Shown piece by piece: positions 16,501 through 62,563 of a stretch of DNA of 64,000 nt. The position numbers and the translations under genes were made by a program. Within the stretch, counting starts at the first letter, position 1, and each line of letters begins with the position of its first letter. A model generated the notes under the pieces. The model was not told the DNA's origin. It did no database searches and worked only from the letters and a program-made list of their open reading frames with translations. This DNA is from Salminus brasiliensis (Eukaryota > Chordata > Actinopteri > Characiformes > Bryconidae), in NCBI RefSeq assembly GCF_030463535.1, contig NC_132891.1:12125949-12189948 (forward strand), read 5' to 3'.

Positions 16501-17577
16501 ATCCTGTAAGTACAATGTTCATCTACTGAGAGCTGGAAATGAGGTCATAAAATTGAGTGAATGTCAGTGTGATATGCTGACCAGCTTCCAAATGGACCAG
16601 CGGGGCCTGAAGATACAAAATGTGTATACTTTTGGAGTTTTATTTGACCATTATCCAGGTCATTTAATAATATAAAGACATTATCCCTGATAATGCAATA
16701 TTACTGAAACCTTCCTACCTTCAAGTCTGCCATCTGCACTGTAGAAACCTGCTGCTCTTTTACTGCCAGCTCAGCTTCTGATGGAGAAAATATCAGGCTC
16801 ACAGAAATGATGAAACTATGTACAATAACTAAACTAACCGTCCCCTCAATAAGCGTTTCGGGCTGATGTATATGTATCAGACACAACAGATTTTTACACA
16901 CATCCACAAGTTAAGAGTGATCAGTCATTCAAAAATATAAAGCCAAGAAGATATATATGGTCATAAACTGTCAATGAAGGCCTTAAAATAACTAGCATTT
17001 AGCATGGCAACTGATATGCTGTTGCTTACAAGCAAGTGTAACTGTTTGAGTGCCCAGAGACTGTACAATTATACTAAAAGTGAATTTGACACTCACCTCT
17101 GCCATTCTGAGCCTTAGTCCTATGCCTTTCAAGCTCTCTGTATCCAGCCTGATGGCTCTTGCTGTTTGCTGTGATCTCACTGTCCGGTGACACGTTTTTA
17201 TGTTTAACAGTTGAGAATCTAAGCTCTGGAAAATGTTTTTTTCTCTGACTCGTCCTCCTTCTCCTCTTCTTGTCTCCAGGATCCATTTCTAAACGCACCG
17301 GGCTAAGACCCTCTAGCTCAGGCTTGTCATACTGGGTCTGAATCACAACACGAACAAGCCGAGGCCTACCACTTAGCCGCATATCATTCATGCCCTCTTC
17401 ATGCCCACCCGGTCTCCTCTGAAGCCCCAATTTTTCTGAGTTGGAATGAGTGATGGGATTGCCAGACTGGTCACTTGGAGTATTTCTGAATGGTTTAGTT
17501 TTGACCTCCATAGCATGCGTCTGTATGCCCATGGTAAGGAGGACAGCAAGGCCAAAACACCAAAAGGAAGAAGTCAT
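13517..17577 (-). CDS. draxin: Draxin, secreted axon-guidance protein (short form, 259 residues)
   Basis: Coding exons on the minus strand: 17577-17097 (the exon itself starts at 17578, just after an acceptor), 16777-16719, 16335-16299, 15333-15244, 13629-13517 (TGA). Splice sites are GT-AG and phases agree. Draxin is a secreted repulsive guidance cue for commissural axons that binds DCC/netrin and antagonises Wnt through LRP6. Seen: N-terminal signal peptide ([20 protein letters not shown], likely cut near THA), a basic linker with KKRRRR, and a C-terminal cysteine domain with eight Cys: [19 protein letters not shown], then [13 protein letters not shown] and KGRC. The block [12 protein letters not shown] is diagnostic. 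At 259 residues it is shorter than draxins of about 350, the linker being reduced. The last exon has four His in a row. I chose MTSSF because the exon starts one base before it. Confidence 0.93.
13689..15159. mobile_element. Tc1-like transposon remnant interrupted by other repeats
   Basis: Left end TACACCGATCAGCCATAACA (13689) and right end (to 15159) are inverted repeats of 22 bp with two mismatches, flanked by TA. Bases 13690-14000 match the ends of a widespread fish Tc1-like element, including remnants of the transposase gene read in reverse. The middle is replaced by a SINE-like tail and a LINE piece. It sits in the last draxin intron. Confidence 0.75.
14673..15122 (-). mobile_element. 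LINE reverse-transcriptase C-terminal fragment
   Basis: The minus strand encodes [12 protein letters not shown], then SPLLCSLHW and [19 protein letters not shown], typical of the RT C-terminus of fish non-LTR (L2/CR1-like) elements. It is open for about 149 codons but lacks the catalytic RT core, so it is a 5'-truncated relic. Confidence 0.8.
16018..16185. mobile_element. Diverged Tc1/mariner-like MITE in draxin intron
   Basis: Left end TACACTACACAGGCAAAGGT and right end near CAAACATTTGGACATATCG are degraded copies of the same inverted ends as the 5182-5298 element. Confidence 0.55.
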
Positions 17578-18990
17578 CCTGAGAAGGAGGAAGAAATACA
17601 ACACATAAGACAAATACATCTCAATGAACTCTTTTGTAATAATCAGAAATCAGTGACAAATGCAAGATACCAGTAATAAAACCTTGATGTTGATACAGAT
17701 TGCTTCATTACAGACTAATCAAGAAGTGCTAACATTAATAACACGTAAAGACAATCATCAGTCTGGATTTTAGAGCAAGAAAACAATTTTTTAAAATTAG
17801 CATTAAATGATGCTGAATGTCTATTTATACTGGCTATGGACTGCCGGAAGACCAAAACGTTATTATAAACTTCTATTACTAAAGACGTTTGTACAGAAGT
17901 CACAGTAGTAATTGAATAATATACCTTTGAAAAAATTGGGCAGATAATCATTAGTACATAAATTACTTTCAAAGATACTCCAAAGAGCAAAGATACTCCT
18001 GTCCCTGTTTATACATTGCAGACTGCTCCATTTCAAAAGAAATGTGGAAAAGGACCAGCACAAACATGACGACAAGCTAAAGAGTGCAGAACACTCTTTT
18101 TTATAGCAGTACAGAATAGGAGAGAGTTGCTGGTTTTAAGCCATGTAACTGAGACTCAGTGACACTAACAGGCATTAAGACTCCTCTTACCCATAACCAA
18201 CCGATACACGTTTTGTGTGTGGGTTAATGTATAGCTTGCTTTGTAGAGCTACCAGAAACGAGAAGCAGAATCTGCTCTCATCTTTTCTAATAGCTTTCGG
18301 TGCCTTCAGCTCTAAAGTAATTCATGCTGAGAAGTGGGGATTAAAATAGCTCAAAAAAAAAAACAAGACAGATCCTTTAACTATGTTAGGGATCCTTCTT
18401 TGTGCACTTGCCCTACATGCATAAGCAGTGAAGCCAAAAACCAATAAGAGCTCAGTGTAGCACACCAAGCTATGATTGTGTCAACAGAGAGAACATGGTC
18501 TGAGCTTTTTTGAATAGTGTTTCTACTCGCTGTCTCAGGACATTTGGTCATTCTGTGTTCGCTGTTTGACATTTGATTGCAAATATAAAAGGCAGACAAG
18601 ACGCAGACGCGTAAGCCCCTCTGAATGGATGCACTTTTGTAAAGCATCTTTGCAATGGGGATGAATAACTGATCTGAGCTGGGGGATTTTTTTACCCTAG
18701 CAAAAAAATGGATTACACACACTTCGGGGGTGTGTGTAGCTGCTGGCTAATTAACCAAGCTAAGTTTGCTTTCATGTCCTGTCACATCAAAGATTTAACA
18801 AATCCTGCACTCAAAACCCAGAGATCCACAGACATGCAAAGCAGCTCTAAATGTCAGGATGTTTTATTATCGAAAACTCAAACAAACAAACAAACAAACA
18901 TCTCAATTTTTCACTTTTTAAAATGTGTGCTGCACTGGTTAAAGATGAATAAATTAAAGGTAGATATGAGCACAAGTAATATCCAGTTGG

Positions 18991-23142: not shown

Positions 23143-23649
23143 TTTATTAAAAAAAACACTGATATTAAGAAATACATATTAAGTAATACATCATTGCAAA
23201 TATGTATTAAATAATATAAAATTCTGAAGCATATGATTACAACATAGGCTTCTGCATTAACCGCATACTAATGGTCCCTTTGTACAAAGGAATGTGTCTT
23301 TCATTCAGATCTTCTGTTCAACATTTACGTTTCATGCACCTGTTAAACAAACATTTTTTTCTTCATAGTACACTAAAGCATGTTCTGCTTATGAACATTA
23401 GCCATTTCCAGCGTCCATTTGTGGACTAAATTTAACCCCTGCAGGGCTGCGTGCATAACAAAAGCAAATCTGTCTTTACAAAAGACTTTACGTGCAGTTA
23501 AGCTATAAACCATTTGCCTCTTCATAGCAAAAACACCTACGCATATTTAAAACAAACCATGAAACAAAATGTTTCCAAATTTCAAGTATCCAGGGTCCGT
23601 GCTGGATGGCGTTCAACCACCATTACTGTTTTTCAGTTCTTAAGGTAGA
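23143..23649 (-). other. 3' UTR of the 86-residue gene
   Basis: TTTATT at 23143-23148 reads AATAAA on the minus strand about 500 bp after the stop. No other feature is seen. Confidence 0.45.
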
Positions 23650-24187
23650 TCACTGCTGGAAACACAGAGGAGCCACATCTTCAGCTGGGGCAGGGAAGAA
23701 GCGGAGGGTTTCTCTTGAGTACTTGGAGTAACCATCGTGGAAGATTGGGGCCTTTTTTGGAGCAAAGAACGAGACAGTCTTCTCCCAGATGTCTGTATGT
23801 GAGATGCCATTGTGCAGCTGGATCTCCAGAGCAGTCTTGAGGCGCTCCACACCATCAGTGCACTTTCTTTCCAGGCTCAAGAGCTTGCACCTAAGAAAAA
23901 AAAGAGCATCAACATGATTGCTGTGCTGGATTACACTCAAATAAGTGCTTCAAGTGGTTCTTTGAACAATGCCATCAAAAGAAACATGGTTCTTCCAAGG
24001 CATCACCTAGAAGGTCAGTGCCAGGACTACTTTTAAACCTCAGCAAATGTACCAAAAATGTAATCTATATTTATCATCAAATCAAAGTTTTACATTCAGA
24101 GAAATGCAATGAACCCAGATACTGCTGATTTACTCCAAAGATTCAGTCTAAAAATTCTTCAACATACCTTGTCTGTAGGTCTCTCAT
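23650..24187 (-). CDS. Unrecognised 86-residue protein with Notch-type promoter
   Basis: Two exons: 24187-24168 (MRDLQT plus two bases) and 23890-23650 (TGA), with donor GTATGT and acceptor CTTAG in phase. I do not recognise the family. Seen: no signal peptide or membrane segment; residues about 10-35 look helical and amphipathic (LERKCTDGVERLKTALEIQL); then SHTDIWEKTVSFFAPKKAPI and a C-terminal part rich in aromatic residues and prolines (RETLRFFPAPAEDV). It has three Cys. The alternative that this is a non-coding or decayed locus is weakened by the proper intron, poly(A) signal and promoter (see 24262-24324). It is transcribed away from the first her copy, whose ATG is 2 kb to the right. 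A role in Notch feedback is only inference from promoter and position. Confidence 0.7.
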
Positions 24188-24261
24188 GGTGTTTGGCTGA
24201 GCGATGTCAGAGTCGCGTAAAGAAGAGCGGCGAGACTGACTTGACCTGCTTGCGAGACTGC

Positions 24262-24324
24262 ATTTATACACAGGCCATCCACATGTAATGAGATGCAAGT
24301 TCTCACAACTTCGTAACCAATTGG
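24262..24324 (-). promoter_or_regulatory. Inverted CCAAT - CSL - TATA promoter of the 86-residue gene
   Basis: Reading the minus strand: CCAATTGG (24324-24317), nine bases after its ATTGG the RBPJ/CSL consensus TGTGAGAA (24307-24300), then TGTATAAATG (24271-24262), and the ATG 75 bases further. The order, strand and CCAAT-CSL spacing copy the her promoters of this window (8 bases there). Confidence 0.7.
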
Positions 24325-24525
24325 AGGTCTACAACAAGACAACGATGCAAGAGTGAATTGTTGGAAAAATCGGTGAACAATAACTGAGAGCTTTACAAGC
24401 AGGTGGGAGGGAGCACTTTTCATAACCCCTGTCAGTCAAGCCATAGAGACATTGTTACGAAAGCAGCTTTGAGTGTTGAGAATCGACACAGATGCGATTC
24501 ATGATGTTCTCTGCCAGTGAAATGC

Positions 24526-25789
24526 TGTGGGAAAATGTGAAGTCAAACATCTGCCCAAGAGCTAAGTGACTATGTATATACATTATTAAATATATAATAC
24601 AGCGAAGTATGAAAAGGTAAATACCTCATATTTAGGCTTTTTTTTTAAATATATTTCTTTTAATGGTCATATTCAATTGACAAAGACAAATTCTTTTGTA
24701 CATTTTTACTAAAGAACTGAGTTTATAAGACTATATACCACTTACATATCACTTACACTCTATCATATTGACTTATGTAAACAAAGGCCTCCATAAACAT
24801 TCATAAAGACTATTTCTGTGCTGAAATCACATCAGAATTGACAAAAACGGTCTTTATCTAAACTTGTGCACGTAGGTCTAAGGCCTTATAAATGTATATG
24901 TATGCTGATGTCACTGTGTCAAAGGCTTACGTAGGTGCGATGTAGCTTTAGGAATGCTGCCCTATATGCCACAGCATAAACCTTAGTATGTAACTAAAAG
25001 TTATAAATGTTTAACATTGGGACATTTTATATAATCACGTTACTTACGTTACCGTAATAATACTGTATTACAAAAAAAAAAAAACTTATAAGATATGCTT
25101 ATTGATTATTCTTATCTTGTTGCTGTTCAATTAGCACAGTTTGATGTTAGGGGATATCTCATTCCCACACATGAAGCTCTGGCAGTCTAGTCTATGGGAG
25201 GTAACTGAACAACCCTATCCAGATGGCTGGCCTGGTAGTTTGGAGGGGGAGGTGGGGGCTGGTCACTCTGGCTTTGTGTAATGGGCCACACTTCTTTTGT
25301 GTACAGGCTCAATGTCATTAATCCAGAAGTGTGGGAAGCCTTGCTGCAGAGCCGCTCCCACGTTCTCACTGCTGAAACAGGAGCGTTTAAATGAGGCCTA
25401 GACAACAGGCCAGCCGGCTGTGTGTGTGCGTGTGTGTGCGGCCAAAGGGCTTCTTAACTGGCCAAAGTTTATAGTGTGAGTGTACTGAGGGGCAAAAGTG
25501 TGTAGCTCTGACCTTTTGAAGTTAAAAGGAGAAGAGCTTGTCTGCCATGAGAGCGACAAAAGGTGGAGTTATATAAAACAGTTAGACACGTGCAGATGGG
25601 TTCAATAAGAATGTTTACCAGTATCAAGACTAGAGTTGAAAAAAAATCTACTTAAAAGTGTAACAAAAATCTACTTAAACTTAAAAATATACCACTAATT
25701 TATACATTTATAAACAAAGAATGTGAATCTGATCAATCATCTTTAAAGATCAATGCGTGAAAGCTCTCAAGATTTAAATGTAAATAAGC

Positions 25790-26225: not shown

Positions 26226-26821
26226 ATGCCTCCTACAGTCACTGCAGCTCTCATCTACTCCAAAGAGCATCTTCCACTTTCAAACAAGGTAAATATCCTA
26301 AACCAGGACATCTCATCTGTTCCAGTTCTGTATTGGTTTAGTGTGGGAATCAGGAGCAGAAGCTGATCAGTGTAATTAAACATGGATTTCTTTTCTCTCT
26401 CCAGCTGAGGAAGCCAATAGTGGAGAAGATGCGTAGAGAACGCATCAACAGCAGCATCGAGAAGCTCAAGTCTCTCCTGGGCCGAGAATTCCTAAAGCAG
26501 CAGCCTGATTCCAGACAGGAGAAAGCCGACATCCTGGAGATGACGCTTCACTTCCTGAAACAGCAGCAGCAGTCCCACAACCACTCTGTCTGCTCCACTG
26601 CAGCCAATGAAGGCTACAGCAGGTGTGTGCAGGAGGCCATCAGCTTCCTGTCTCAGTGTGAAGTGCAGACTTCATCCCAGAGAAGACTGCTGAAGCACTT
26701 CCTCACCATGCAGCCTTCCATGGAGAAGAGCACAAGTGTCCTGCAGACCAGCTCTCCAGCCTTCCACACCAGCAGCAAAGAGGAACCTCCAGCCTCTGGT
26801 GCTCTCTGGAGACCCTGGTAG
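26226..26821 (+). CDS. her4: her4-like (HES5-type) bHLH-Orange repressor, copy 1
   Basis: Exon 1 26226-26288, exon 2 26405-26821 (TAG), 159 residues. A HES5-family transcriptional repressor acts downstream of Notch in neural progenitors, binding N-/E-boxes and recruiting Groucho/TLE. Seen: exon 1 encodes 21 residues ending LSNK; bHLH at about 22-75 starts LRKPIVEKMRRERINSSIEK (family Pro before the basic region); a short Gln run of four; Orange domain at about 93-125 (GYSRCVQEAISFLSQCEVQT); C-terminal WRPW. There is only one intron. The intron holds a CSL site at 26342-26349. Which zebrafish member (her4, her2, her15 group) it matches best cannot be settled by eye. The coding region and promoter match the array copies closely but the flanks do not. 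Confidence 0.93.
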
Positions 26822-32129: not shown

Positions 32130-34060
32130 TCAAAACCCGGGGGGTGGTCCTCGTGGTTGGCTGGACATCAGAAGAGGCGCCTCGAGGGTCTGGCTGTCAC
32201 TGGAGTCATGACACCGCCAACGGCCATCCTCATCGACAGAGACCCCCTTGAAGACGATGGCCACCGTGGTTTTCTGAAAAACACAGAATAAAGAAATGAT
32301 GAAAATGTGCAGAACTGTCACTGGACACATGTTTCTAAAAGCTCCTCGTTACTAGAAACTCTAATTACAAAAAGGCAGAAAAAGAACTGACCAGGAAAAC
32401 CTCCTGAACTGAGGAGTCTGTTGTTTCGGTGCGCAGGTAGATCTTGGCCTCAGTGATGAATGTTCCGATGCACTGAATGAACAGAGGACACGGTGAAGAA
32501 ACTGAAATCACAAAAGAACAAACTGCCTCCAAAAGCCTCAGCATTCAAGTGAGTCTGTGGCTTTACCTTGATGCAGGCCACAGCACGGGTGGTGGCGAAG
32601 TGCTGGGGAGGAAGCTGTAAATACAATGAAAATCATGAGCTTAACAGGAAACAGGCTGTAGAACATCTACTTACAATAACATCATCAACCTACTCCAGTG
32701 ACTTACCTCTAGTGAACGCACGTGATAGAAGTCGTTGATGAGCACCCACCAGTGCTCCGACTCCAGACCGTTGTAGGAGGCCTTGTGCTGCAGCTTCACC
32801 TCCACCAGCTGCAGAAATCAGGAGGAAAACAGCTCATCAGTTTGAATGATGATTTGGAGAAGATTTCCTTCAACATCACTTAAGTAATAAAGTGTGTTTG
32901 AACAGAGTAAATGTATCATAAACACAATCCAGACTGATAGCAACCTTTCTGTAGTCCGATGACCACTTGGAGTAGGAGGAAGCAAACGTCCTGTTTGCTC
33001 TGTCCACCTCTCTGCAGGACTGCTACAGGGACGGTGAGAGAGAAAAGAAAAGCTTTAGACCAGACTGTTAAAGTTATCAGACCACAAACACAGTTTTCAT
33101 CTCAAGAAAGAGGGAAAGATTTCTGGTCTGCAGAGACATCTCCAACAGCAAAGACAAGACATGGAAATATGGTTCAAACAGAGCAGGAATATTTCTGTAA
33201 CCTCCTCAATTCAATGATCCTCTTCAGTCCGTTCAAACTAAGAGAAAGATTACCTCTGGGATGAGAACACAGAAGGAGGAGGACATCTCCTGCTCCAGAC
33301 GATCCATTCCTACAGAAAATGATGAATAAAGTCTTGAAATGTTTCAGTGTTAAATGTTGAAGTAATCACTGAAAGAGTTCAGAAAAGCTGATGAAGCATA
33401 AAGAGGGACTGTAGTGTAGATTCACTAAAGTCTAATGAATGAAAGCAGCTCTGACCTCCTGTTACCATGGAAACCTGTTCTCAAAGCGTTAGCTTAGCAT
33501 TAGGCTAAATTCAGCTAACACTACTAGTATACTAGAATATCAGTGTTTATGATTAATATCAGTGTTTATGAAGAATATCAGTGTTTATGATTAATATCAG
33601 TGTTTATAATTAATTTCAGTGTTTATGATTAATTTCAGTGTTTATGATTAATTTCAGTGTTTATGATTAATATCAGTGTTTATGATTAATATCAGTGTTT
33701 ATGAGGAATATCAGTGTTTATGATTAATTTCAGTGTTTATGATTAATATCAGTGTTTATGATTAATTTCAGTGTTTAATCAGAGCTCTATTAAAAAGGGA
33801 ACTTTACCGAGTTACAGGGCGCCGCTACTCGGTCAGTAAATGAAGCGTTTAGCTAGGTTTGGTCTTTTGGTTCTGCTATCAGAACCAGTAGTTCTAGATA
33901 ACTCACCATCGCAAGCGTCGGTCCGGGTCGCAGCATCCACCGTCGTCCGCTGCTGGTCCAGGATCCGCCGCCACCTAGAAAAGAGAAAATAGGAGGTGAC
34001 AGCTGAAATGCCAGCAGCCCAGAGGACCACTGGCCGCAGCTGAACCCCGAGGAAAGCCAT
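32130..34060 (-). CDS. geneB copy 1: unrecognised membrane-anchored protein, 220 residues
   Basis: Seven exons on minus: 34060-33907, 33309-33254, 33022-32945, 32808-32707, 32614-32567, 32472-32392, 32273-32130 (TGA). All junctions are GT-AG and in phase. I do not recognise the family. Seen: residues 1-10 MAFLGVQLRP, one hydrophobic segment at about 11-28 (VVLWAAGISAVTSYFLFS) followed at once by RWRR, which suggests a single-pass anchor with the rest cytosolic; then a mostly polar, probably folded body with NGLESEHWWVLINDFYHVRS and TTRAVACIKCIGTFITEAKI; a Pro-rich tail ending RGPPPGF. The ATG has a good context (A at -3, G at +4). Conservation of seven exons in five copies argues it is or was a real gene. 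Compared with copies 2 and 5, Ala replaces Ser in KTTVAIVF. Confidence 0.8.
33541..33779. repeat. 19-bp minisatellite in geneB copy 1 intron 1 (13 repeats)
   Basis: CAGTGTTTATGATTAATAT repeats at exact 19-bp steps from 33541 to 33769, with GATTAAT/GAGGAAT and ATAT/ATTT variants. Confidence 0.95.
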
Positions 34061-34679
34061 TTCTGTCGGGTGCTTGTCCAGATAGTGGGAGCTCAGGAAC
34101 AGCGTGTTGCTCGGTTGGGTGTCGGTAAACGACTGATCAGATTTAGAGCTTCAGTTTCGTTAAAGTTCCATAGAACTTCTGTCACCATGGAGACGAACAT
34201 TCACTTCAAAACATGCTTCCGAGACAGCGACATTTGAACCGTGGAGTTTATGAGACGTCACCGTTTTTACGACACTTCTTGTGATCATCTGTTCTCATAT
34301 GAGCTTAGTTTACAACAAGATGCTGCATCCAGACTTTCAGGAATCAGAACCAGAATCAGAACACTGTCAGACTCTCACAATCATTACAGTCATGTGGGAA
34401 AGACAGCTCTCACACACACTCCCAATCTGACTTTATAATATCATGAAACCTCTGGAATATATTACGATATGAAGCCAAATCACTAAATCCACACAAGGTG
34501 TACACATCAGTGGTCTTAGAGGCAGGTTGTCTCAGACAGTCTGTATTGTCTAATGTGGGACAGTCTGTTTGAAATGTGGGACACTGAAAGAAAGAGAAAG
34601 GCTTTAATTCATGTAATAAAAGCTTCTAAGCTCAGAAACATTAACGGCTAAAGGTGTGATATCATGTTCAGTCATTTTA

Positions 34680-37372: not shown

Positions 37373-37972
37373 ATGCCTCCTACAGTCACTGCAGCTCTCA
37401 TCTACTCCAAAGAGCATCTTCCACTTTCAAACAAGGTAAATATCCTAAACCAGGACATCTCATCTGTTCCAGTTCTGTATTGGTTTAGTGTGGGAATCAG
37501 GAGCAGAAGCTGATCAGTGTAATTAAACATGGATTTCTTTTCTCTCTCCAGCTGAGGAAGCCAATAGTGGAGAAGATGCGTAGAGAACGCATTAAAAGCA
37601 GCATCGAGAAGCTCAAGTCTCTCCTGGGCCGAGAATTCCTAAAGCAGCAGCCTGATTCCAGACAGGAGAAAGCCGACATCCTGGAGATGACGCTTCACTT
37701 CCTGAAACAGCAGCAGCAGCAGTCCAACAACCACTCTTGTCTGCTCCACTGCAGCCAATGAAGGCTACAGCAGGTGTGTGCAGGAGGCCGTCGGCTTCCT
37801 ATCTCAGTGTGGAGTGCAGACATCATCCCAGAGAAGACTGCTGAAGCACTTCCTCACCATGCAGCCTTCCATGGAGAAGAGCACAAGTGTCCTGCAGACC
37901 AGCTCTCCAGCCTGCCACACCAGCAGCAAAGAGGAAGCTCCAGCATCTAGTGCTCTCTGGAGACCCTGGTAG
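37373..37972 (+). pseudogene. her4: her4-like copy 3, frameshifted after the bHLH
   Basis: Exon 1 37373-37435, exon 2 from 37552. An extra T at 37737-37738 (ACTCTTG where the others have ACTCTG) shifts the frame, and translation would stop at 37759-37761 after 90 residues. The bHLH is complete (Asn to Lys: RERIKSSIEK), but Orange and WRPW lie in another frame, still open from 37778 to 37972. The stop is in the last exon, so nonsense-mediated decay is not expected and a bHLH-only protein could be made. An assembly indel is possible. SNNH after the Gln run is shared with copy 6. Confidence 0.8.
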
Positions 37973-39581: not shown

Positions 39582-41521
39582 TCAAAACCCGGGGGGTGGT
39601 CCTCGTGGTTGGCTGGACATCAGAAGAGGCGCCTCGAGGGTCTGGCTGTCACTGGAGTCATGACACCGCCAACGCCCATCCTCATCGACAGAGACCCCCT
39701 TGAAGACGATGGACACCGTGGTTTTCTGAAAAACACACAATAAAGAAATGATGAAAATGTGCAGAACTGTCACTGGACACATGTTTCTAAATGCTCCTCG
39801 TTACTAGAAACTCTAATTACAAAAAGGCAGAAAAAGAACTGACCAGGAAAACCTCCTGAACTGAGGAGTCTGTTGTTTCGGTGCGCAGGTAGATCTTGGC
39901 CTCAGTGATGAATGTTCCGATGCACTGAATGAACAGAGGACACGGTGAAGAAACTGAAATCACAAAAGAACAAACTGCCTCCAAAAGCCTCAGCATTCAA
40001 GTGAGTCTGTGGCTTTACCTTGATGCAGGCCACAGCACGGGTGGTGGCGAAGTGCTGGGGAGGAAGCTGTAAATACAATGAAAATCATGAGCTTAACAGG
40101 AAACAGGCTGTAGAACATCTACTTACAATAACATCATCAACCTACTCCAGTGACTTACCTCTAGTGAGCGCACGTGATAGAAGTCGTTGATGAGCACCCA
40201 CCAGTGCTCCGACTCCAGACCGTTGTAGGAGGCCTTGTGCTGCAGCTTCACCTCCACCAGCTGCAGAAATCAGGAGGAAAACAGCTCATCAGTTTGAATG
40301 ATGATTTGGAGAAGATTTCCTTCAACATCACTTAAGTAATAAAGTGTGTTTGAACAGAGTAAATGTATCATAAACACAATCCAGACTGATAGCAACCTTT
40401 CTGTAGTCCGATGACCACTTGGAGTAGGAGGAAGCAAACGTCCTGTTTGCTCTGTCCACCTCTCTGCAGGACTGCTACAGGGACGGTGAGAGAGAAAAGA
40501 AAAGCTTTAGACCAGACTGTTAAAGTTATCAGACCACAAACACAGTTTTCATCTCAAGAAAGAGGGAAAGATTTCTGGTCTGCAGAGACATCTCCAACAG
40601 CAAAGACAAGACATGGAAATATGGTTCAAACAGAGCAGGAATATTTCTGTAACCTCCTCAATTCAATGATCCTCTTCAGTCCGTTCAAACTAAGAGAAAG
40701 ATTACCTCTGGGATGAGAACACAGAAGGAGGAGGACATCTCCTGCTCCAGACGATCCATTCCTACAGAAAATGATGAATAAAGTCTTGAAATGTTTCAGT
40801 GTTAAATGTTGAAGTAATCACTGAAAGAGTTCAGAAAAGCTGATGAAGCATAAAGAGGGACTGTAGTGTAGATTCACTAAAGTCTAATGAATGAAAGCAG
40901 CTCTGACCTCCTGTTACCATGGAAACCTGTTCTCATGGTAAACAAAGCGTTAGCTTAGCATTAGGCTAAATTCAGCTAACACTACTAGTATACTAGAATA
41001 TCAGTGTTTATGAGGAATTTTAGTGTTTATGATTAATATCAGTGTTTATGAAGAATATCAGTATTTATGATTAATATCAGTGTTTATGAGGAATTTTAGT
41101 GTTTATGATTAATTTCAGTGTTTATGATTAATATCAGTGTTTATGATTAATATCAGTGTTTATGAGGAATATCAGTGTTTATGATTAATTTCAGTGTTTA
41201 TGATTAATATCAGTGTTTATGATTAATTTCAGTGTTTAATCAGAGCTCTATTAAAAAGGGAACTTTACCGAGTTACAGGGCGCCGCTACTCGGTCAGTAA
41301 ATGAAGCGTTTAGCTAGGTTTGGTCTTTTGGTTCTGCTATCAGAACCAGTAGTTCTAGATAACTCACCATCGCAAGCGTCGGTCCGGGTCGCAGCATCCA
41401 CCGTCGTCCGCTGCTGGTCCAGGATCCGCCGCCACCTAGAAAAGAGAAAATAGGAGGTGACAGCTGAAATGCCAGCAGCCCAGAGGACCACTGGCCGCAG
41501 CTGAACCCCGAGGAAAGCCAT
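39582..41521 (-). CDS. geneB copy 2 (intact, 220 residues)
   Basis: Exons 41521-41368, 40761-40706, 40474-40397, 40260-40159, 40066-40019, 39924-39844, 39725-39582 (TGA). Same architecture as copy 1, with Ser in KTTVSIVF as in copy 5. The (CA)n in its 3' UTR (about 39441-39456) is short. Its tail faces her copy 3, its head faces her copy 4. Confidence 0.8.
41002..41240. repeat. 19-bp minisatellite, geneB copy 2 (13 repeats)
   Basis: Same 19-bp unit, steps from 41002 to 41230. Two or more units carry TTAGTGTTTA instead of CAGTGTTTA. Confidence 0.9.
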
Positions 41522-44073
41522 TTCTGTCGGGTGCTTGTCCAGATAGTGGGAGCTCAGGAACAGCGTGTTGCTCGGTTGGGTGTCGGTAAACGACTGATCA
41601 GATTTAGAGCTTCAGTTTCGTTAAAGTTCCATAGAACTTCTGTCACCATGGAGACGAACATTCACTTCAAAACATGCTTCCGAGACAGCGACACTTGAAC
41701 CGTGGAGTTTATGAGACGTCACCGTTTTTACGACACTTCTTGTGATCATCTGTTCTCATATGAGCTTAGTTTACAACAAGATGCTGCATCCAGACTTTCA
41801 GGAATCAGAACCAGAATCAGAACACTGTCAGACTCTCACAATCATTACAGTCATGTGGGAAAGACAGCTCTCACACACACTCCCAATCTGACTTTATAAT
41901 ATCATGAAACCTCTGGAATATATTACGATATGAAGCCAAATCACTAAATCCACACAAGGTGTACACATCAGTGGTCTTAGAGGCAGGTGGTCTCAGACAG
42001 TCTGTATTGTCTAATGTGGGACAGTCTGTTTGAAATGTGGGACACTGAAAGAAAGAGAAAGGCTTCAATTCATGTAATAAAAGCTTCTAAGCTCAGAAAC
42101 ACTAACGGCTAAAGGTATGATATCATGTTCAGTCATTTTACCATTTCACCAGTCATTTTGCTGTTCCAAGACTTGGGGTTTATGGGATGGAGGCTATATG
42201 TAACTGTTATCATGGCATGATCTCACACCCCTGCAGAAGAAATTCATTCACATTTCTAAACTTCTTTCCTAAAGTGCTTCTGTTTAACATTTTCTCCACC
42301 ATATTGTATGATTTAACATTGTGGACATCATGTGATGTTGATCACATGCCATTAGAGCTTCAGTCAGCCTGTTACACATTAAACAGTATCCTACATTAGG
42401 CAGTCCACCCTCAGCAGTTTTTTTAATTAGCTGTTGATGGTGGTATGAAGAGGTGAAATGAGATCAATAGGCTTATTGCTTCTTGACATATGAAAGTGCC
42501 CATCAAATATCTTATCTCTATCAGACCCACCTGATGAATCTCTCCTGCTTTTGCTGAGTTCACCCTCTAACACAGGGATTGGAAACTGAAGGCCAGAGTC
42601 CTGCACAGTTTGGTCATTTTCCCGTGCAGGAATTCAGTCCTCCAAGTCCAGCTTCTCTCAACTCTGCTCTAATGCTAGAGTGTGTAATTAAATGGCCATG
42701 CTTCTCTACTCCAGTCCTGAAGATACACTGACCTGCACCCACTCCAACACACCTGCCTGGCTCACCAGCTCATTATCAGTACACCACATACTGAAATGTG
42801 AGCTTTCGCCCTAAACACCATAAACAGAGATCTGAATGCAGGAGTCAGTCAACAGCTACACAAACTGCCAGCGTCCAAATCTCTGAATAGTTTATTTTAT
42901 GTTTGTTTGTGAACAAATCTTCTGTTTTTGCTCCACAGAAGGTCATAAGGTCAGCAGCCAATGAACGAGATTGGAAGTAGAAAGGAACTGAAGAGCAGAG
43001 AGCAACGTCATGCTCCTTGATGAGTGTACTGGTCATTGAACAGTCTTCTCATGTCTGGGGAGCAGGTGGAGGGGTGTGTATGTTGTGTGTGTTAGAAAGT
43101 GTGTGAGAAAGTCCCCATGTCTAAAGGCCTCCAGTCACAGAATAATTAGTGACACAGCACGTGTGGTTCAGACAGCAGGAGCAGTCCAGGCAGTGTTTGT
43201 CTGAGAGCAGGACTGACTCTCAGTTTATCTTACTGTCTGATTTCAAACTGATTCTTCAATCAGATCCAGAGTGTAGAAACGAGAACAGCGTTTTAAACAG
43301 GACTGTCTGATGATTTCAGCTCTGACTGTACACAGCTTTCTCACCCCGGGGTCCAGCACTGTCTACACAGATGGACAGATGTGAGAGGAGGGCTTATGTC
43401 CCACTGGACTGAGACCACTCAGTCAAGAGTCTTTAAAAAGAGGAAATGGCTTAATATGATCTTAATAATTTTTGATTTTTAATGTTGAAATGTGTATCTA
43501 TTAAATATTTCACTGATATTTCTTAACAGGACTGATGTTTGTACACCTCCTCTTCTGAGTGTGACTTGTTGACCATATGCTGTAATGGGGCACACTTCTA
43601 TTCAGCTGTATGTGGATGAATGAGGAGAGTGTGGGAAAGCTCTGGAGAGAACAGTCTCACTCCTCCACTGCACACACACTCCTGCTCCCAGCTTCACTGC
43701 TTGACATGACATCACATGATATGAAGGAATTTAAGTGATATGAGTCTAACGTGACATTTCTATAAGACACTGTCTTATTTTTAATAACCCTGAAACAAAT
43801 GTATCATATTTTTTTTTCAAAACTTTTTAAATAATGTTTTCTATTTATGAAATATCCCATAATATGCAGTATATGAACGGCACGTGCTGTTTCACCTATT
43901 AACCCCATAATATCAGTGACTGAGCTGGAGGTCACCACTTTCTCACACACTTCTCTCTCTCTGACACACCCCTCCACCTGCTGCACAGAGCTAGGCTCAT
44001 TGTTTCCTGAGTAACACACACGTCACTGAGCATGTGGCAGCCCTCCGTTCCTTACTGTCATCCGAGCTTCCCC

Positions 44074-46417: not shown

Positions 46418-48243
46418 TCAAAACCCGGGGGGTGGTCCTCGTGGTTGGCTGGACATCAGAAGAGGCGCCTCGAGGGTCTGGCTGTCACTGGAGTCATGAC
46501 ACCGCCAACGGCCATCCTCATCGACAGAGACCCCCTTGAAGACGATGGCCACCGTGGTTTTCTGAAAAACACAGAATAAAGAAATGATGAAAATGTGCAG
46601 AACTGTCACTGGACACATGTTTCTAAAAGCTCCTCGTTACTAGAAACTCTAATTACAAAAAGGCAGAAAAAGAACTGACCAGGAAAACCTCCTGAACTGA
46701 GGAGTCTGTTGTTTCGGTGCGCAGGTAGATCTTGGCCTCAGTGATGAATGTTCCAATGCACTGAATGAACAGAGGACACGGTGAAGAAACTGAAATCACA
46801 AAAGAACAAACTGCCTCCAAAAGCCTCAGCATTCAAGTGAGTCTGTGGCTTTACCTTGATGCAGGCCACAGCACGGGTGGTGGCGAAGTGCTGGGGAGGA
46901 AGCTGTAAATACAATGAAAATCATGAGCTTAACAGGAAACAGGCTGTAGAACATCTACTTACAATAACATCATCAACCTACTCCAGTGACTTACCTCTAG
47001 TGAGCGCACGTGATAGAAGTCGTTGATGAGCACCCACCAGTGCTCCGACTCCAGACCGTTGTAGGAGGCCTTGTGCTGCAGCTTCACCTCCACCAGCTGC
47101 AGAAATCAGGAGGAAAACAGCTCATCGGTTTGAATGATGATTTGGAGAAGATTTCCTTCAACATCACTTAAGTAATAAAGTGTGTTTGAACAGAGTAAAT
47201 GTATCATAAACACAATCCAGACTGATAGCAACCTTTCTGTAGTCCGATGACCACTTGGAGTAGGAGGAAGCAAACGTCCTGTTTGCTCTGTCCACCTCTC
47301 TGCAGGACTGCTACAGGGACGGTGAGAGAGAAAAGAAAAGCTTTAGACCAGACTGATGAAGTTATCAGACCACAAACACAGTTTTCATCTCAAGAAAGAG
47401 GGAAAGATTTCTGGTCTGCAGAGACATCTCCAACAGCAAAGACAAGACATGGAAATATGGTTCAAACAGAGCAGGAATATTTCTGTAACCTCCTCAATTC
47501 AATGATCCTCTTCAGTCCGTTCAAACTAAGAGAAAGATTACCTCTGGGATGAGAACACAGAAGGAGGAGGACATCTCCTGCTCCAGACGATCCATTCCTA
47601 CAGAAAATGATGAATAAAGTCTTGAAATGTTTCAGTGTTAAATGTTGAAGTAATCACTGAAAGAGTTCAGAAAAGCTGATGAAGCATAAAGAGGGACTGT
47701 AGTGTAGATTCACTAAAGTCTAATGAATGAAAGCAGCTCTGACCTCCTGTTACCATGGAAACCTGTTCTCATGGTAAACAAAGCGTTAGCTTAGCATTAG
47801 GCTAAATTCAGCTAACACTACTAGTATACTAGAATATCAGTGTTTATGATTAATTTCAGTGTTTATGATTAATTTCAGTGTTTATGATTAATTTCAGTGT
47901 TTATGATTAATATCAGTGTTTATGATTAATATCAGTGTTTATGATTAATTTCAGTGTTTAATCAGAGCTCTATTAAAAAGGGAACTTTACCGAGTTACAG
48001 GGCGCCGCTACTCGGTCAGTAAATGAAGCGTTTAGCTAGGTTTGGTCTTTTGGTTCTGCTATCAGAACCAGTAGTTCTAGATAACTCACCATCGCAAGCG
48101 TCGGTCCGGGTCGCAGCATCCACCGTCGTCCGCTGCTGGTCCAGGATCCGCCGCCACCTAGAAAAGAGAAAATAGGAGGTGACAGCTGAAATGCCAGCAG
48201 CCCAGAGGACCACTGGCCGCAGCTGAACCCCGAGGAAAGCCAT
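46418..48243 (-). CDS. geneB copy 3 (intact, 220 residues)
   Basis: Exons 48243-48090, 47597-47542, 47310-47233, 47096-46995, 46902-46855, 46760-46680, 46561-46418 (TGA). Ala in KTTVAIVF as in copy 1. The (CA)n in the 3' UTR is at about 46269-46297. Its head is followed by the LINE at 48863, as in unit 1. Confidence 0.8.
47838..47962. repeat. 19-bp minisatellite, geneB copy 3 (7 repeats)
   Basis: Shortest of the five arrays: steps from 47838 to 47952. Confidence 0.9.
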
Positions 48244-48862
48244 TTCTGTCGGGTGCTTGTCCAGATAGTGGGAGCTCAGGAACAGCGTGTTGCTCGGTTG
48301 GGTGTCGGTAAACGACTGATCAGATTTAGAGCTTCAGTTTCGTTAAAGTTCCATAGAACTTCTGTCACCATGGAGACGAACATTCGCTTCAAAACATGCT
48401 TCCGAGACAGCGACACTTGAACCGTGGAGTTTATGAGACGTCACCGTTTTTACGACACTTCTTGTGATCATCTGTTCTCATATGAGCTTAATTTACAACA
48501 AGATGCTGCATCCAGACTTTCAGGAATCAGAACCAGAATCAGAACACTGTCAGACTCTCACAATCATTACAGTCATGTGGGAAAGACAGCTCTCACACAC
48601 ACTCCCAATCTGACTTTATAATATCATGAAACCTCTGGAATATATTACGATATGAAGCCAAATCACTAAATCCACACAAGGTGTACACATCAGTGGTCTT
48701 AGAGGCAGGTGGTCTCAGACAGTCTGTATTGTCTAATGTGGGACAGTCTGTTTGAAATGTGGGACACTGAAAGAAAGAGAAAGGCTTCAATTCATGTAAT
48801 AAAAGCTTCTATGCTCAGAAACACTAACGGCTAAAGGTATGATATCATGTTCAGTCATTTTA

Positions 48863-53782: not shown

Positions 53783-55741
53783 TCAAAACCCGGGGGGTGG
53801 TCCTCGTGGTTGGCTGGACATCAGAAGAGGCGCCTCGAGGGTCTGGCTGTCACTGGAGTCATGACACCGCCAACGCCCATCCTCATCGACAGAGACCCCC
53901 TTGAAGACGATGGACACCGTGGTTTACTGAAAAACACACAATAAAGAAATGATGAAAATGTGCAGAACTGTCACTGGACACATGTTTCTAAAAGCTCCTC
54001 GTTACTAGAAACTCTAATTACAAAAAGGCAGAAAAAGAACTGACCAGGAAAACCTCCCGAACTGAGGAGTCTGTTGTTTCGGTGCGCAGGTAGATCTTGG
54101 CCTCAGTGATGAATGTTCCGATGCACTGAATGAACAGAGGACACGGTGAAGAAACTGAAATCACAAAAGAACAAACTGCCTCCAAAAGCCTCAGCATTCA
54201 AGTGAGTCTGTGGCTTTACCTTGATGCAGGCCACAGCACGGGTGGTGGCGAAGTGCTGGGGAGGAAGCTGTAAATACAATGAAAATCATGAGCTTAACAG
54301 GAAACAGGCTGTAGAACATCTACTTACAATAACATCATCAACCTACTCCAGTGACTTACCTCTAGTGAGCGCACGTGATAGAAGTCGTTGATGAGCACCC
54401 ACCAGTGCTCCGACTCCAGACCGTTGTAGGAGGCCTTGTGCTGCAGCTTCACCTCCACCAGCTGCAGAAATCAGGAGGAAAACAGCTCATCAGTTTGAAT
54501 GATGATTTGGAGAAGATTTCCTTCAACATCACTTAAGTAATAAAGTGTGTTTGAACAGAGTAAATGTATCATAAACACAATCCAGACTGATAGCAACCTT
54601 TCTGTAGTCCGATGACCACTTGGAGTAGGAGGAAGCAAACGACCTGTTTGCTCTGTCCACCTCTCTGCAGGACTGCTACAGGGACGGTGAGAGAGAAAAG
54701 AAAAGCTTTAGACCAGACTGATAAAGTTATCAGACCACAAACACAGTTTTCATCTCAAGAAAGAGGGAAAGATTTCTGGTCTGCAGAGACATCTCCAACA
54801 GCAAAGACAAGACATGGAAATATGGTTCAAACAGAGCAGGAATATTTCTGTAACCTCCTCAATTCAATGATCCTCTTCAGTCCGTTCAAACTAAGAGAAA
54901 GATTACCTCTGGGATGAGAACACAGAAGGAGGAGGACATCTCCTGCTCCAGACGATCCATTCCTACAGAAAATGATGAATAAAGTCTTGAAATGTTTCAG
55001 TGTTAAATGTTGAAGTAATCACTGAAAGAGTTCAGAAAAGCTGATGAAGCATAAAGAGGGACTGTAGTGTAGATTCACTAAAGTCTAATGAATGAAAGCA
55101 GCTCTGACCTCCTGTTACCATGGAAACCTGTTCTCATGGTAAACAAAGCGTTAGCTTAGCATTAGGCTAAATTCAGCTAACACTACTAGTATACTAGAAT
55201 ATCAGTGTTTATGATTAATATCAGTGTTTATGATTAATATCAGTGTTTATGAGGAATTTCAGTATTTATGATTAATTTCAGTGTTTATGATTAATATCAG
55301 TGTTTATGAGGAATATCAGTGTTTATGATTAATATCAGTGTTTATGAGGAATATCAGTGTTTATGAGGAATATCAGTGTTTATGATTAATTTCAGTGTTT
55401 ATGATTAATATCAGTGTTTATGATTAATATCAGTGTTTATGATTAATATCAGTGTTTAATCAGAGCTCTATTAAAAAGGGAACTTTACCGAGTTACAGGG
55501 CGCCGCTACTCGGTCAGTAAATGAAGCGTTTAGCTAGGTTTGGTCTTTTGGTTCTGCTATCAGAACCAGTAGTTCTAGATAACTCACCATCGCAAGCGTC
55601 GGTCCGGGTCGCAGCATCCACCGTCGTCCGCTGCTGGTCCAGGATCCGCCGCCACCTAGAAAAGAGAAAATAGGAGGTGACAGCTGAAATGCCAGCAGCC
55701 CAGAGGACCACTGGCCGCAGCTGAACCCCGAGGAAAGCCAT
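53783..55741 (-). pseudogene. geneB copy 4, stop at first codon of exon 7
   Basis: Exons 55741-55588, 54962-54907, 54675-54598, 54461-54360, 54267-54220, 54125-54045 and 53926-53783. The first codon of exon 7 is TAA instead of AAA (base 53926), so the product would end at 173 residues, losing the last 47 (KTTVSIVFKG onward). It also has Thr to Ser in exon 3 and Gln to Arg in exon 6. The stop is in the last exon, so the transcript should escape decay. The (CA)n at 53618-53655 is the longest of the five. Confidence 0.78.
55203..55460. repeat. 19-bp minisatellite, geneB copy 4 (14 repeats)
   Basis: Steps from 55203 to 55450, with ATTAAT/AGGAAT variants. Confidence 0.9.
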
Positions 55742-56098
55742 TTCTGTCGGGTGCTTGTCCAGATAGTGGGAGCTCAGGAACAGCGTGTTGCTCGGTTGGG
55801 TGTCGGTAAACGACTGATCAGATTTAGAGCTTCAGTTTCGTTAAAGTTCCATAGAACTTCTGTCACCATGGAGACGAACATTCACTTCAAAACATGCTTC
55901 CGAGACAGCGACATTTGAACCGTGGAGTTTATGAGACGTCACCGTTTTTACGACACTTCTTGTGATCATCTGTTCTCATATGAGCTTAGTTTACAACAAG
56001 ATGCTGCATCCAGACTTTCAGGAATCAGAACCAGAATCAGAACACTGTCAGACTCTCACAATCATTACAGTCATGTGGGAAAGACAGCTCTCACACAC

Positions 56099-58055: not shown

Positions 58056-60593
58056 GGGGAAGCTCGGATGACAGTAAGGAACGGAGGGCTGCCACATGCT
58101 CAGTGACGTGTGTGTTACTCAGGAAACAATGAACCCAGCTCTGAGCAGCAGGTGGAGGGGTGTGTCAGAGAGAGAGAAGTGTGTGAGAAAGTGGTGACCT
58201 CCAGCTCAGTCACTGATATTATGGGGTTAATAGGTGAAACAGCACGTGCCGTTCATATACTGCATATTGTGGGATATTTCATAAATGGAAAACATTATTT
58301 CAAAAGTTTTAAAAATGATACATTTGTTTCAGGGTTATTAAAAATAAGACAGTGTCTTATAGAAATGTCACATTAGACTCATATCAGTTAAATTCCTTCA
58401 TATCATGTGATGTCATGTCAAGCAGTGAAGCTGGGAGCAGGAGTGTGTGTGCAGTGGAGGAATGAGACTGTTCTCTCCAGAGCTTTCCCACACTCTCCTC
58501 ATTCATTCACACACAGCTGAATAGAAGTGTGCCCCATTACAGCATATGGTCAACAAGTCACACTCAGAAGAGGAGGTGTACAAACATCAGTCCTGTTAAG
58601 AAACATCAGTGAAATATTTAATAGATACACATTTCAACATTAAAAATCTAAAAATTATTAAGATCATATTAAGCCATTTCCTCTTTTTAAAGACTCTTGA
58701 CTGAGTGGTCTCAAGTCAGTGGGACATAAGCCCTCCTCTCACATCTGTCCATCTGTGTAGACAGTGCTGGACCCCGGGGTGAGAAAGCTGTGTACAGTCA
58801 GAGCTGAAATCATCAGACAGTCCTGTTTAAAACGCTGTTCTCGTTTCTACACTCTGGATCTGATTGAAGAATCAGTTTGAAATCAGACAGTAAGATAAAC
58901 TGAGAGTCAGTCCTGCTCTCAGACAAACACTGCCTGGACTGCTCCTGCTGTCTGAACCACACGTGCTGTGTCACTAATTATTCTGTGACTGGGGGTCTGT
59001 AGACATGGGGACTTTCTCACACACTTTCCAACACACACAACATACGCACCCCTACACCTGCTCCCCAGACATGAGAAGACTGTTCAATGACCAGTACACT
59101 CATCAAGGAGCGTGACGTTCCTCTCTGCTCTTTAGTTCCTTTCTACTTCCAAACTCATTAATTGGCGGCTGACCTTATGACCTTTTGTGGAGCAAAAACA
59201 GAAGATTTGTTCACAAACAAACATAAAATAAACTATTCAGAGATTTGGACGCTGGCAGTTTGTGTAGCTGTTGACTGACTCCTGCATTCAGATCTCTGTT
59301 TATGGTGTTTAGGGCGAAAGCTCACATTTCAGTATGTGGTGTACTGATAATGAGCTGATGAACCAGGCAGGTGTGTTGGAGTGGGTGCAGGTCAGTGTAT
59401 CTTCAGGACTGGAGTAGAGAAGCATGGCCATTTAATTACACACTCTAGCATTAGAGCAGAGTTGAGAGAAGCTGGACTTGTAGGACTGAATTCCTGCACG
59501 GGAAAAACACCAAACTGTGCAGGACTCTGGCCTTCAGTTTCCAATCCCTGTGTTAGAGGGTGAACTCAGCAAAAGCAGGAGAGATTCATCGGGTGGGTCT
59601 GATAGAGATAAGATATTTGATGGGCTCTTTCATATTTCAAGAAGCAATAAGCCTATTGATCTCATTTCACCTTTTCATACCACCATCAACAGCTAATTAA
59701 AAAAACTGCTGAGGGTGGACTGCCTAATGTAGGATACTGTTTAATGTGTAACAGGCTGACTGAAGTTCTAATGGCATGTGATCAACATCACATGATGTCC
59801 ACAATGTTAAATCATACAATATGGTGGAGAAAATGTTAAACAGAAGCACTTTAGGAAAGAAGTTTAGAAATGTGAATGAATTTCTTCTGCAGGGGTGTGA
59901 GATCATGCCATGATAACAGTTACATATAGCCTCCATCCCATAAACCCCAAGTCTTGGAACAGCAAAATGACTGGTAAAATGACTGAACATGATATCACAC
60001 CTTTAGCCGTTAGTGTTTCTGAGCTTAGAAGCTTTTATTACATGAATTGAAGCCTTTCTCTTTCTTTCAGTGTCCCACATTTCAAACAGACTGTCCCACA
60101 TTAGACAATACAGACTGTCTGAGACCACCTGCCTCTAAGACCACTGATGTGTACACCTTGTGTGGATTTAGTGATTTGGCTTCATATCGTAATATATTCC
60201 AGAGGTTTCATGATATTATAAAGTCAGATTGGGAGTGTGTGTGAGAGCTGTCTTTCCCACATGACTGTAATGATTGTGAGAGTCTGACAGTGTTCTGATT
60301 CTGGTTCTGATTCCTGAAAGTCTGGATGCAGCATCTTGTTGTAAACTAAGCTCATATGAGAACAGATGATCACAAGAAGTGTCGTAAAAACGGTGACGTC
60401 TCATAAACTCCACGGTTCAAATGTCGCTGTCTCGGAAGCATGTTTTGAAGTGAATGTTCGTCTCCATGGTGACAGAAGTTCTATGGAACTTTAACGAAAC
60501 TGAAGCTCTAAATCTGATCAGTCGTTTACCGACACCCAACCGAGCAACACGCTGTTCCTGAGCTCCCACTATCTGGACAAGCACCCGACAGAA

Positions 60594-62563
60594 ATGGCTT
60601 TCCTCGGGGTTCAGCTGCGGCCAGTGGTCCTCTGGGCTGCTGGCATTTCAGCTGTCACCTCCTATTTTCTCTTTTCTAGGTGGCGGCGGATCCTGGACCA
60701 GCAGCGGACGACGGTGGATGCTGCGACCCGGACCGACGCTTGCGATGGTGAGTTATCTAGAACTACTGGTTCTGATAGCAGAACCAAAAGACCAAACCTA
60801 GCTAAACGCTTCATTTACTGACCGAGTAGCGGCGCCCTGTAACTCGGTAAAGTTCCCTTTTTAATAGAGCTCTGATTAAACACTGATATTAATCATAAAC
60901 ACTGATATTAATCATAAACACTGAAATTAATCATAAACACTGATATTAATCATAAACACTGAAATTAATCATAAACACTGATATTAATCATAAACACTGA
61001 TATTCCTCATAAACACTGATATTAATCATAAACACTGATATTAATCATAAACACTGATATTCCTCATAAACACTGATATTAATCATAAACACTGATATTC
61101 CTCATAAACACTGAAATTAATCATAAACACTGATATTAATCATAAACACTGATATTCTAGTATACTAGTAGTGTTAGCTGAATTTAGCCTAATGCTAAGC
61201 TAACGCTTTGTTTACCATGAGAACAGGTTTCCATGGTAACAGGAGGTCAGAGCTGCTTTCATTCATTAGACTTTAGTGAATCTACACTACAGTCCCTCTT
61301 TATGCTTCATCAGCTTTTCTGAACTCTTTCAGTGATTACTTCAACATTTAACACTGAAACATTTCAAGACTTTATTCATCATTTTCTGTAGGAATGGATC
61401 GTCTGGAGCAGGAGATGTCCTCCTCCTTCTGTGTTCTCATCCCAGAGGTAATCTTTCTCTTAGTTTGAACGGACTGAAGAGGATCATTGAATTGAGGAGG
61501 TTACAGAAATATTCCTGCTCTGTTTGAACCATATTTCCATGTCTTGTCTTTGCTGTTGGAGATGTCTCTGCAGACCAGAAATCTTTCCCTCTTTCTTGAG
61601 ATGAAAACTGTGTTTGTGGTCTGATAACTTTAACAGTCTGGTCTAAAGCTTTTCTTTTCTCTCTCACCGTCCCTGTAGCAGTCCTGCAGAGAGGTGGACA
61701 GAGCAAACAGGACGTTTGCTTCCTCCTACTCCAAGTGGTCATCGGACTACAGAAAGGTTGCTATCAGTCTGGATTGTGTTTATGATACATTTACTCTGTT
61801 CAAACACACTTTATTACTTAAGTGATGTTGAAGGAAATCTTCTCCAAATCATCATTCAAGCTGATGAGCTGTTTTCCTCTGCAGCTGGTGGAGGTGAAGC
61901 TGCAGCACAAGGCCTCCTACAACGGTCTGGAGTCGGAGCACTGGTGGGTGCTCATCAACGACTTCTATCACGTGCGCTCACTAGAGGTAAGTCACTGGAG
62001 TAGGTTGATGATGTTATTGTAAGTAGATGTTCTACAGCCTGTTTCCTGTTAAGCTCATGATTTTCATTGTATTTACAGCTTCCTCCCCAGCACTTCGCCA
62101 CCACCCGTGCTGTGGCCTGCATCAAGGTAAAGCCACAGACTCACTTGAATGCTGAGGCTTTTGGAGGCAGTTTGTTCTTTTGTGATTTCAGTTTCTTCAC
62201 CGTGTCCTCTGTTCATTCAGTGCATCGGAACATTCATCACTGAGGCCAAGATCTACCTGCGCACCGAAACAACAGACTCCTCAGTTCAGGAGGTTTTCCT
62301 GGTCAGTTCTTTTTCTGCCTTTTTGTAATTAGAGTTTCTAGTAACGAGGAGCTTTTAGAAACATGTGTCCAGTGACAGTTCTGCACATTTTCATCATTTC
62401 TTTATTGTGTGTTTTTCAGAAAACCACGGTGTCCATCGTCTTCAAGGGGGTCTCTGTCGATGAGGATGGCCGTTGGCGGTGTCATGACTCCAGTGACAGC
62501 CAGACCCTCGAGGCGCCTCTTCTGATGTCCAGCCAACCACGAGGACCACCCCCCGGGTTTTGA
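60594..62563 (+). CDS. geneB copy 5 (intact, 220 residues, inverted)
   Basis: Exons 60594-60747, 61392-61447, 61679-61756, 61885-61986, 62079-62126, 62221-62301, 62420-62563 (TGA); lengths 154, 56, 78, 102, 48, 81 and 144. This copy reads most easily since it is on the given strand. Same anchor-plus-body layout as copy 1, Ser in KTTVSIVF. The poly(A) signal AATAAA is at 63347-63352, so the 3' UTR is about 0.8 kb unless it is spliced (an acceptor-like CTTTTTTCAG precedes 62724). Confidence 0.82.
60877..61151. repeat. 19-bp minisatellite, geneB copy 5 (15 repeats)
   Basis: TAAACACTG (reverse of CAGTGTTTA) at 19-bp steps, the first ending at 60885 and the last at 61151. Longest of the five. Confidence 0.9.

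Follow-up and report, generated by a model that had tools for sequence, protein, structure and literature searches.

Introduction

Notch signalling uses her genes to hold back neuron formation; in zebrafish neural stem cells, its central outputs include the clusters her4/her12 and her2/her15. HLH proteins without a basic region (Id/emc) are expected to block their partners, and Id proteins pair with proneural/E-protein bHLH factors, reinforcing the neurogenesis block. Besides, the genes of the Bearded family are small and lie beside Notch-responsive bHLH genes.

According to excerpts of a study on Hes6 and its fish relatives (PMC3125270), the Hes6 loop is five residues shorter, which is linked to its antagonism of Hes1; the same excerpts relate earlier work in which Hes1 minus five loop residues lost repression and Hes6 plus five residues gained it, and state that Hes6-like proteins keep the basic domain and Orange, Her8a having WRPW. 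In the excerpted part of another study (PMC12383255), pairing of Id1 with HES/Her proteins left their own promoters unbound and de-repressed.

Results

A small two-exon gene beside a her cluster

The window, i.e., the whole stretch of 64,000 nucleotides that was analysed (contig C14:12125949-12189948), holds from the left a B-box exon, taken as rnf207, an ICMT exon, a draxin-type exon, a small gene on the minus strand and six her copies. The names her4, her12, her15 and her2 were assigned by similarity and from the content of the zebrafish clusters as given in excerpts of PMC10112928. The features around the small gene are as follows.

17074-17649 (-): draxin-type exon between icmt and the small gene (PF15550, 35.2 bits, cut-off 27)
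23143..23148 (-): possible poly(A) signal AATAAA, the nearest one downstream of the small gene's stop
23650..23890 (-): small gene, exon 2 with stop (23652-23650), predicted basic-less helix-loop-helix and partial Orange domain
23891..24167 (-): small gene, phase-2 intron
24168..24187 (-): small gene, coding part of exon 1, ATG at 24187, MRDLQT plus two bases of a split Arg codon
26226..26821 (+): her copy 1, ATG at 26226, divergent neighbour of the small gene

The small two-exon gene next to the her cluster is real, and the decisive evidence for this is a second copy in the same genome. The original prediction had described a two-exon frame of 86 residues, divergent from her copy 1; the frame, the splice sites and the orientation were all as described, and the second copy was found in the other her cluster. 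The phase-2 donor reads AAG/GTATGT (after 24168) and the acceptor TTTTTTTTCTTAG/G (before 23890). GC content by codon position was 0.52, 0.41 and 0.61 in the coding part, whereas the intron has 0.35 and the 3' flank 0.34. The length of the frame is unremarkable: the 64-kb window contains 67 stop-to-stop frames that reach 90 residues or more, the one around exon 2 among them, and its Fickett score ranked 66th among 301 frames. A spliced frame of at least 86 residues anchored to the promoter position arose in 1 of 3,000 random sequences of local composition, and such frames were obtained from 34 of 4,276 arbitrary window starts, real genes included.

Second copy, selection and age

A genome-wide search with the 86 residues (1.07 Gb, 103 contigs) gave four matches. 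The best non-self match was the second copy (contig C25:6018871-6019113; E 2.0e-25; 62% identity over residues 6 to 86), followed by a her15-type gene (C25:6026642; E 0.13; 42% over residues 17 to 76) and a weak match on contig C2 (E 3.0). The second copy has 96 residues and two exons, with a phase-2 intron as in the small gene, and sits inside the second her cluster, on the other contig, where it is divergent from a plus-strand her gene; thus, each of the two copies is divergent from a her gene.

In this comparison, which covers one species, the exon 2 sequences of the copies differ at 25, 16 and 51 of 80 first, second and third codon positions, respectively. Both copies are under purifying selection: 16 of 19 fourfold sites have changed and yet 50 of the 80 residues are identical. 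The dN between them was 0.27 (Nei-Gojobori), and dS was not computable, also by two other methods, as expected at saturation. The exon 1 peptides are dissimilar. A tree built from eight HLH-Orange segments joined the two copies at 100/100, with a distance of 0.72 between them, the her4-type genes of the two clusters being 0.53 apart.

Four further HLH matches lie to the right of the window on its contig. The second cluster (C25:5962523-6039951, loci L009-L025) contains at least 16 HLH matches, comprising many near-identical her4-type copies, two her15-type and one her2-type, and at least two of its copies have broken frames (near 5966498 and 5993228). Among the six her4-type copies in the window, three (copies 3, 4 and 5; exon 2 at 37552, 44385 and 51743) have frames broken near a polyglutamine run, copy 3 by a frameshift and copies 4 and 5 by an in-frame TAG, with 77-residue frames ending after the HLH; these may be pseudogenes, HLH-only products or assembly errors. 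We also observed an identical 105-residue open frame, repeated with the her units and antisense to the nearby her copies, whose DUF4229 match fell below the cut-off.

33833-34150 (-): 105-residue frame
41294-41611 (-): 105-residue frame
48016-48333 (-): 105-residue frame
55514-55831 (-): 105-residue frame
60504-60821 (+): 105-residue frame

A coiled-coil gene, which we take to be IFFO-like, flanks both clusters on the same side and the same strand. The rnf207 exon matched the genome twice, once per cluster contig, the match on C25 being 3.3 Mb away from the cluster. Excerpts of PMC8320183 describe doubly conserved synteny for the zebrafish clusters on chromosomes 23 and 11. The teleost genome duplication seems to have produced the two clusters, a dating that we infer; if it is right, both the small gene and the her gene divergent from it already existed before that duplication.

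Promoters and a conserved element

The putative control sequences of the small gene, and a conserved element between it and her copy 1, are listed below.

24263..24268 (-): TATA box TATAAA
24300..24307 (-): predicted CSL/RBPJ-type site TGTGAGAA
24317..24321 (-): inverted CCAAT box (ATTGG)
25284..25343 (.): conserved non-coding element, with a CSL-type site TGTGGGAA at 25330-25337

The order claimed for this promoter was confirmed: inverted CCAAT is followed by 9 bp, TGTGAGAA, 31 bp and TATAAA. In the her4-type promoters of both clusters, the first spacing is 8 bp and 46 bp separate TGTGAGAA from the TATA box. The strict CCAAT/TGTGAGAA/TATA pattern, which was defined post hoc from these very sites, occurs seven times in the window (six her copies and the small gene) and was absent from 60 simulated windows. 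Outside the motifs, the promoters of the small gene and the her copies are unlike, equal scores being reached in 149 of 3,000 shuffles and by 147 of 1,237 unrelated pieces. CSL-type sites number six in the 2 kb between the small gene and her copy 1, whereas the leftmost 23 kb of the window contain two; the full window has 42, where shuffles average 9.6, and many of the 42 fall within the repeated her units.

The promoter of the second copy has ATTGG and a TATA-like box with no CSL site between them, and its nearest full CSL match is TGTGGGAA, approximately 180 bp upstream of ATTGG. Direct Notch control of the small gene, which had been suggested originally, is therefore partly supported at most, because the proximal TGTGAGAA is absent from the promoter of the second copy; the her-like promoter motifs and a shared element with a CSL-type site speak for it. 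This 60-bp element has a counterpart in the second cluster (C25:6020409-6020469; 77% identical; E 2.4e-7), gave one strong match in each region searched, and lies in both clusters between the small gene and a her gene. It may act on either of these two genes or on both.

Several other features of these regions were observed. The arms CACACTTCT and AGAAGTGTG of the element are mutual reverse complements, and AGAAGTGTG runs into the CSL-type site. GCAGGTGG, which fits a proneural-type E-box consensus, lies at 24399-24406 (+), some 90 bp upstream of the CSL-type site of the small gene. In her15-type and her12-type promoters (C25 6026281 (+) and 6032942 (-); C14 12201319 (+)), TGTGGGAA stands 47 to 48 bp before the TATA box, a spacing close to the 46 bp of the her4-type copies, with no ATTGG within 30 bp upstream of it.

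The product as a her derivative

Sequence comparisons indicate that the small gene is a her gene whose DNA-binding core has been lost. A profile built from the diverse her genes of this genome gave 17.6 bits for the small gene and 20.2 bits for the second copy, scores matched by none of 10,000 shuffles in either case; when the her15-type rows were left out, 2 of 10,000 shuffles scored as high for the small gene and none for the second copy. Profile-profile comparison with her by hhalign gave 97% (P 2.9e-11, 57 columns). Early comparisons based on her4 had been equalled by 37 and 16 of 2,000 shuffles, and a HES profile by 42 of 10,000. A generic HLH profile of segments including Id, emc, MyoD and E47 gave no signal for the small gene (1,611 of 10,000 shuffles as high), and Pfam reported neither an HLH nor an Orange domain in either copy. 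In a scan of 1,129 open frames from the two regions, the frames listed above the small gene that lacked the her basic motif consisted of the second copy, pieces of her genes and a degraded her-like piece on C25; the next unrelated frame scored 8.3 bits. The degraded frame, near C25 6024855 (-), scored 20 to 25 bits against her profiles and is probably a decayed her gene.

In the alignment to her, helix 1, helix 2 and the first Orange helix (GYSxYxRETxxF) are kept and the rest of Orange is absent, and exon 2 starts one nucleotide off the her intron position. The basic motif KPxVEKMRRxRIN is not preserved in either copy, MRRD being deleted and the Pro absent; KLEKA, five loop residues before helix 2, is deleted as well. 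There is no C-terminal WRPW, the copies ending in CFQQ and FCQQ. Two stretches are retained in both copies: RCKLxSLERKC, with 10 of 11 positions identical and still basic, whose residual basic residues might allow weak DNA contact, and the C-terminal tail EDVxPLxxQQ. AlphaFold2 predicted helices at residues 7 to 26 and 31 to 42 from the single sequence (pLDDT 47.5), and at 2 to 26, 31 to 42 and 50 to 62 from an eight-row alignment (pLDDT 63.9), the latter leaning on the her rows and thus not being independent.

Discussion

We consider it reasonably probable that the small gene is a her gene of long standing, maintained separately and without DNA binding, which is co-expressed with the her genes and whose product pairs with Her proteins and damps Her repression. 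The second copy, purifying selection, the divergent layout, the conserved CSL-type element and the profile homology make up the part of this reading that is borne out at the level of sequence. In the mechanism that we propose, the small gene would be expressed together with the her genes under Notch and RBPJ, and the 86-residue protein would pair with Her proteins through its HLH; the resulting dimers would bind DNA poorly and fail to recruit Groucho/TLE, which would dampen Her repression and Her autorepression. Since the protein has a short loop and lacks both the basic core and WRPW, and given the Hes1/Hes6 loop and Id1 results, it should pair with Her proteins and disarm them, and by analogy with Id or Hes6 this is its most likely action. 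More tentatively, and as a possibility that we rate below an even chance, teleost Hes5-type clusters may have carried a dedicated Her without DNA binding since before the genome duplication, Notch co-regulated with its targets through a shared enhancer.

Loss of the basic core with retention of the HLH would also suit a her-derived protein that pairs mainly with proneural/E-protein bHLH factors and reinforces the neurogenesis block as Id does. We regard this as unlikely, since the homology is to her proteins, part of Orange is kept and the generic HLH profile, with its Id, MyoD and E47 segments, was silent. It is rather improbable that the her-derived protein was kept for some other job, such as a scaffold or DNA binding via its remaining basic residues, and is not a titrating antagonist: the conserved basic stretch and tail described above are not required by plain titration, but the protein has lost the MRRD core and WRPW, on which the known action of Her proteins depends.

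The remaining two explanations concern the nature of the gene itself. A Bearded-like Notch target unrelated to the bHLH genes might be suspected from a small gene with a CSL-type site beside such genes, and the original prediction had pointed to small non-bHLH Notch targets among the bHLH genes of the fly E(spl) complex as a parallel. This parallel is not supported, the protein being itself a her derivative with an HLH and partial Orange; the homology to both her domains and the near-identical intron position make a Bearded-like identity highly improbable, and the hhalign match to her effectively refutes it. A chance frame or decaying pseudogene is barely credible. It would accord with the unremarkable length and Fickett score and with the broken her copies nearby, but two copies lying on separate contigs, which share their splice phase and are under purifying selection, argue against it, and the second copy refutes it.

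If the damping role is true, the cluster encodes repressors together with their own damper, which would determine how strong Her autorepression is or what rhythm it follows. A damper of this kind, linked to Notch and acting on Her repression, would lend itself to direct testing. Among the matches listed from open papers, we found no description of a basic-less Her in Hes5-type clusters. To our knowledge, such a Her is new, its ingredients (HLH-only antagonists and the Hes6-type short loop) being known. According to excerpts of a 2023 study that deleted both clusters in zebrafish (PMC10112928), the clusters hold nine Hes5 homologues "but no other genes", Ensembl being cited for this, and stem/progenitor cells of the thalamic zone were essentially normal after the deletion. 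In zebrafish the gene may be absent, just outside the deleted stretch or unannotated. If it lies in or beside the clusters, the deletion either took repressors and a possible antagonist together or left the antagonist; with the proposed role, the cluster deletions may thus have removed repressors and damper at once.

Comparison with known systems

The small gene shares with the Bearded family of the fly E(spl) complex its small size and its place adjoining Notch-responsive bHLH genes, whereas its own product is a bHLH-Orange derivative. Like Id/emc it has an HLH without a basic region, although residual basic residues remain; unlike them it is derived from her and retains part of Orange, and it has no detectable sequence kinship to the Id HLH by the generic profile. 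With Hes6 and its fish relatives it has in common a loop shorter by five residues, seen as a five-column gap before helix 2, but it differs from Hes6-like proteins in having neither MRRD nor WRPW. It is most like the Hes5-type her genes (her4, her12, her15 and her2), with which it shares location, two exons, an intron at nearly the same place, the HLH and the first Orange helix. The closest among them are the her15-type genes (alignment values of 37 and 35%; e.g., HDGYSKYSRET versus HDGYSQYWRET), from which, as from the other Hes5-type genes, it is set apart by the missing MRRD core, a loop of five residues fewer, a shortened Orange and the lack of WRPW.
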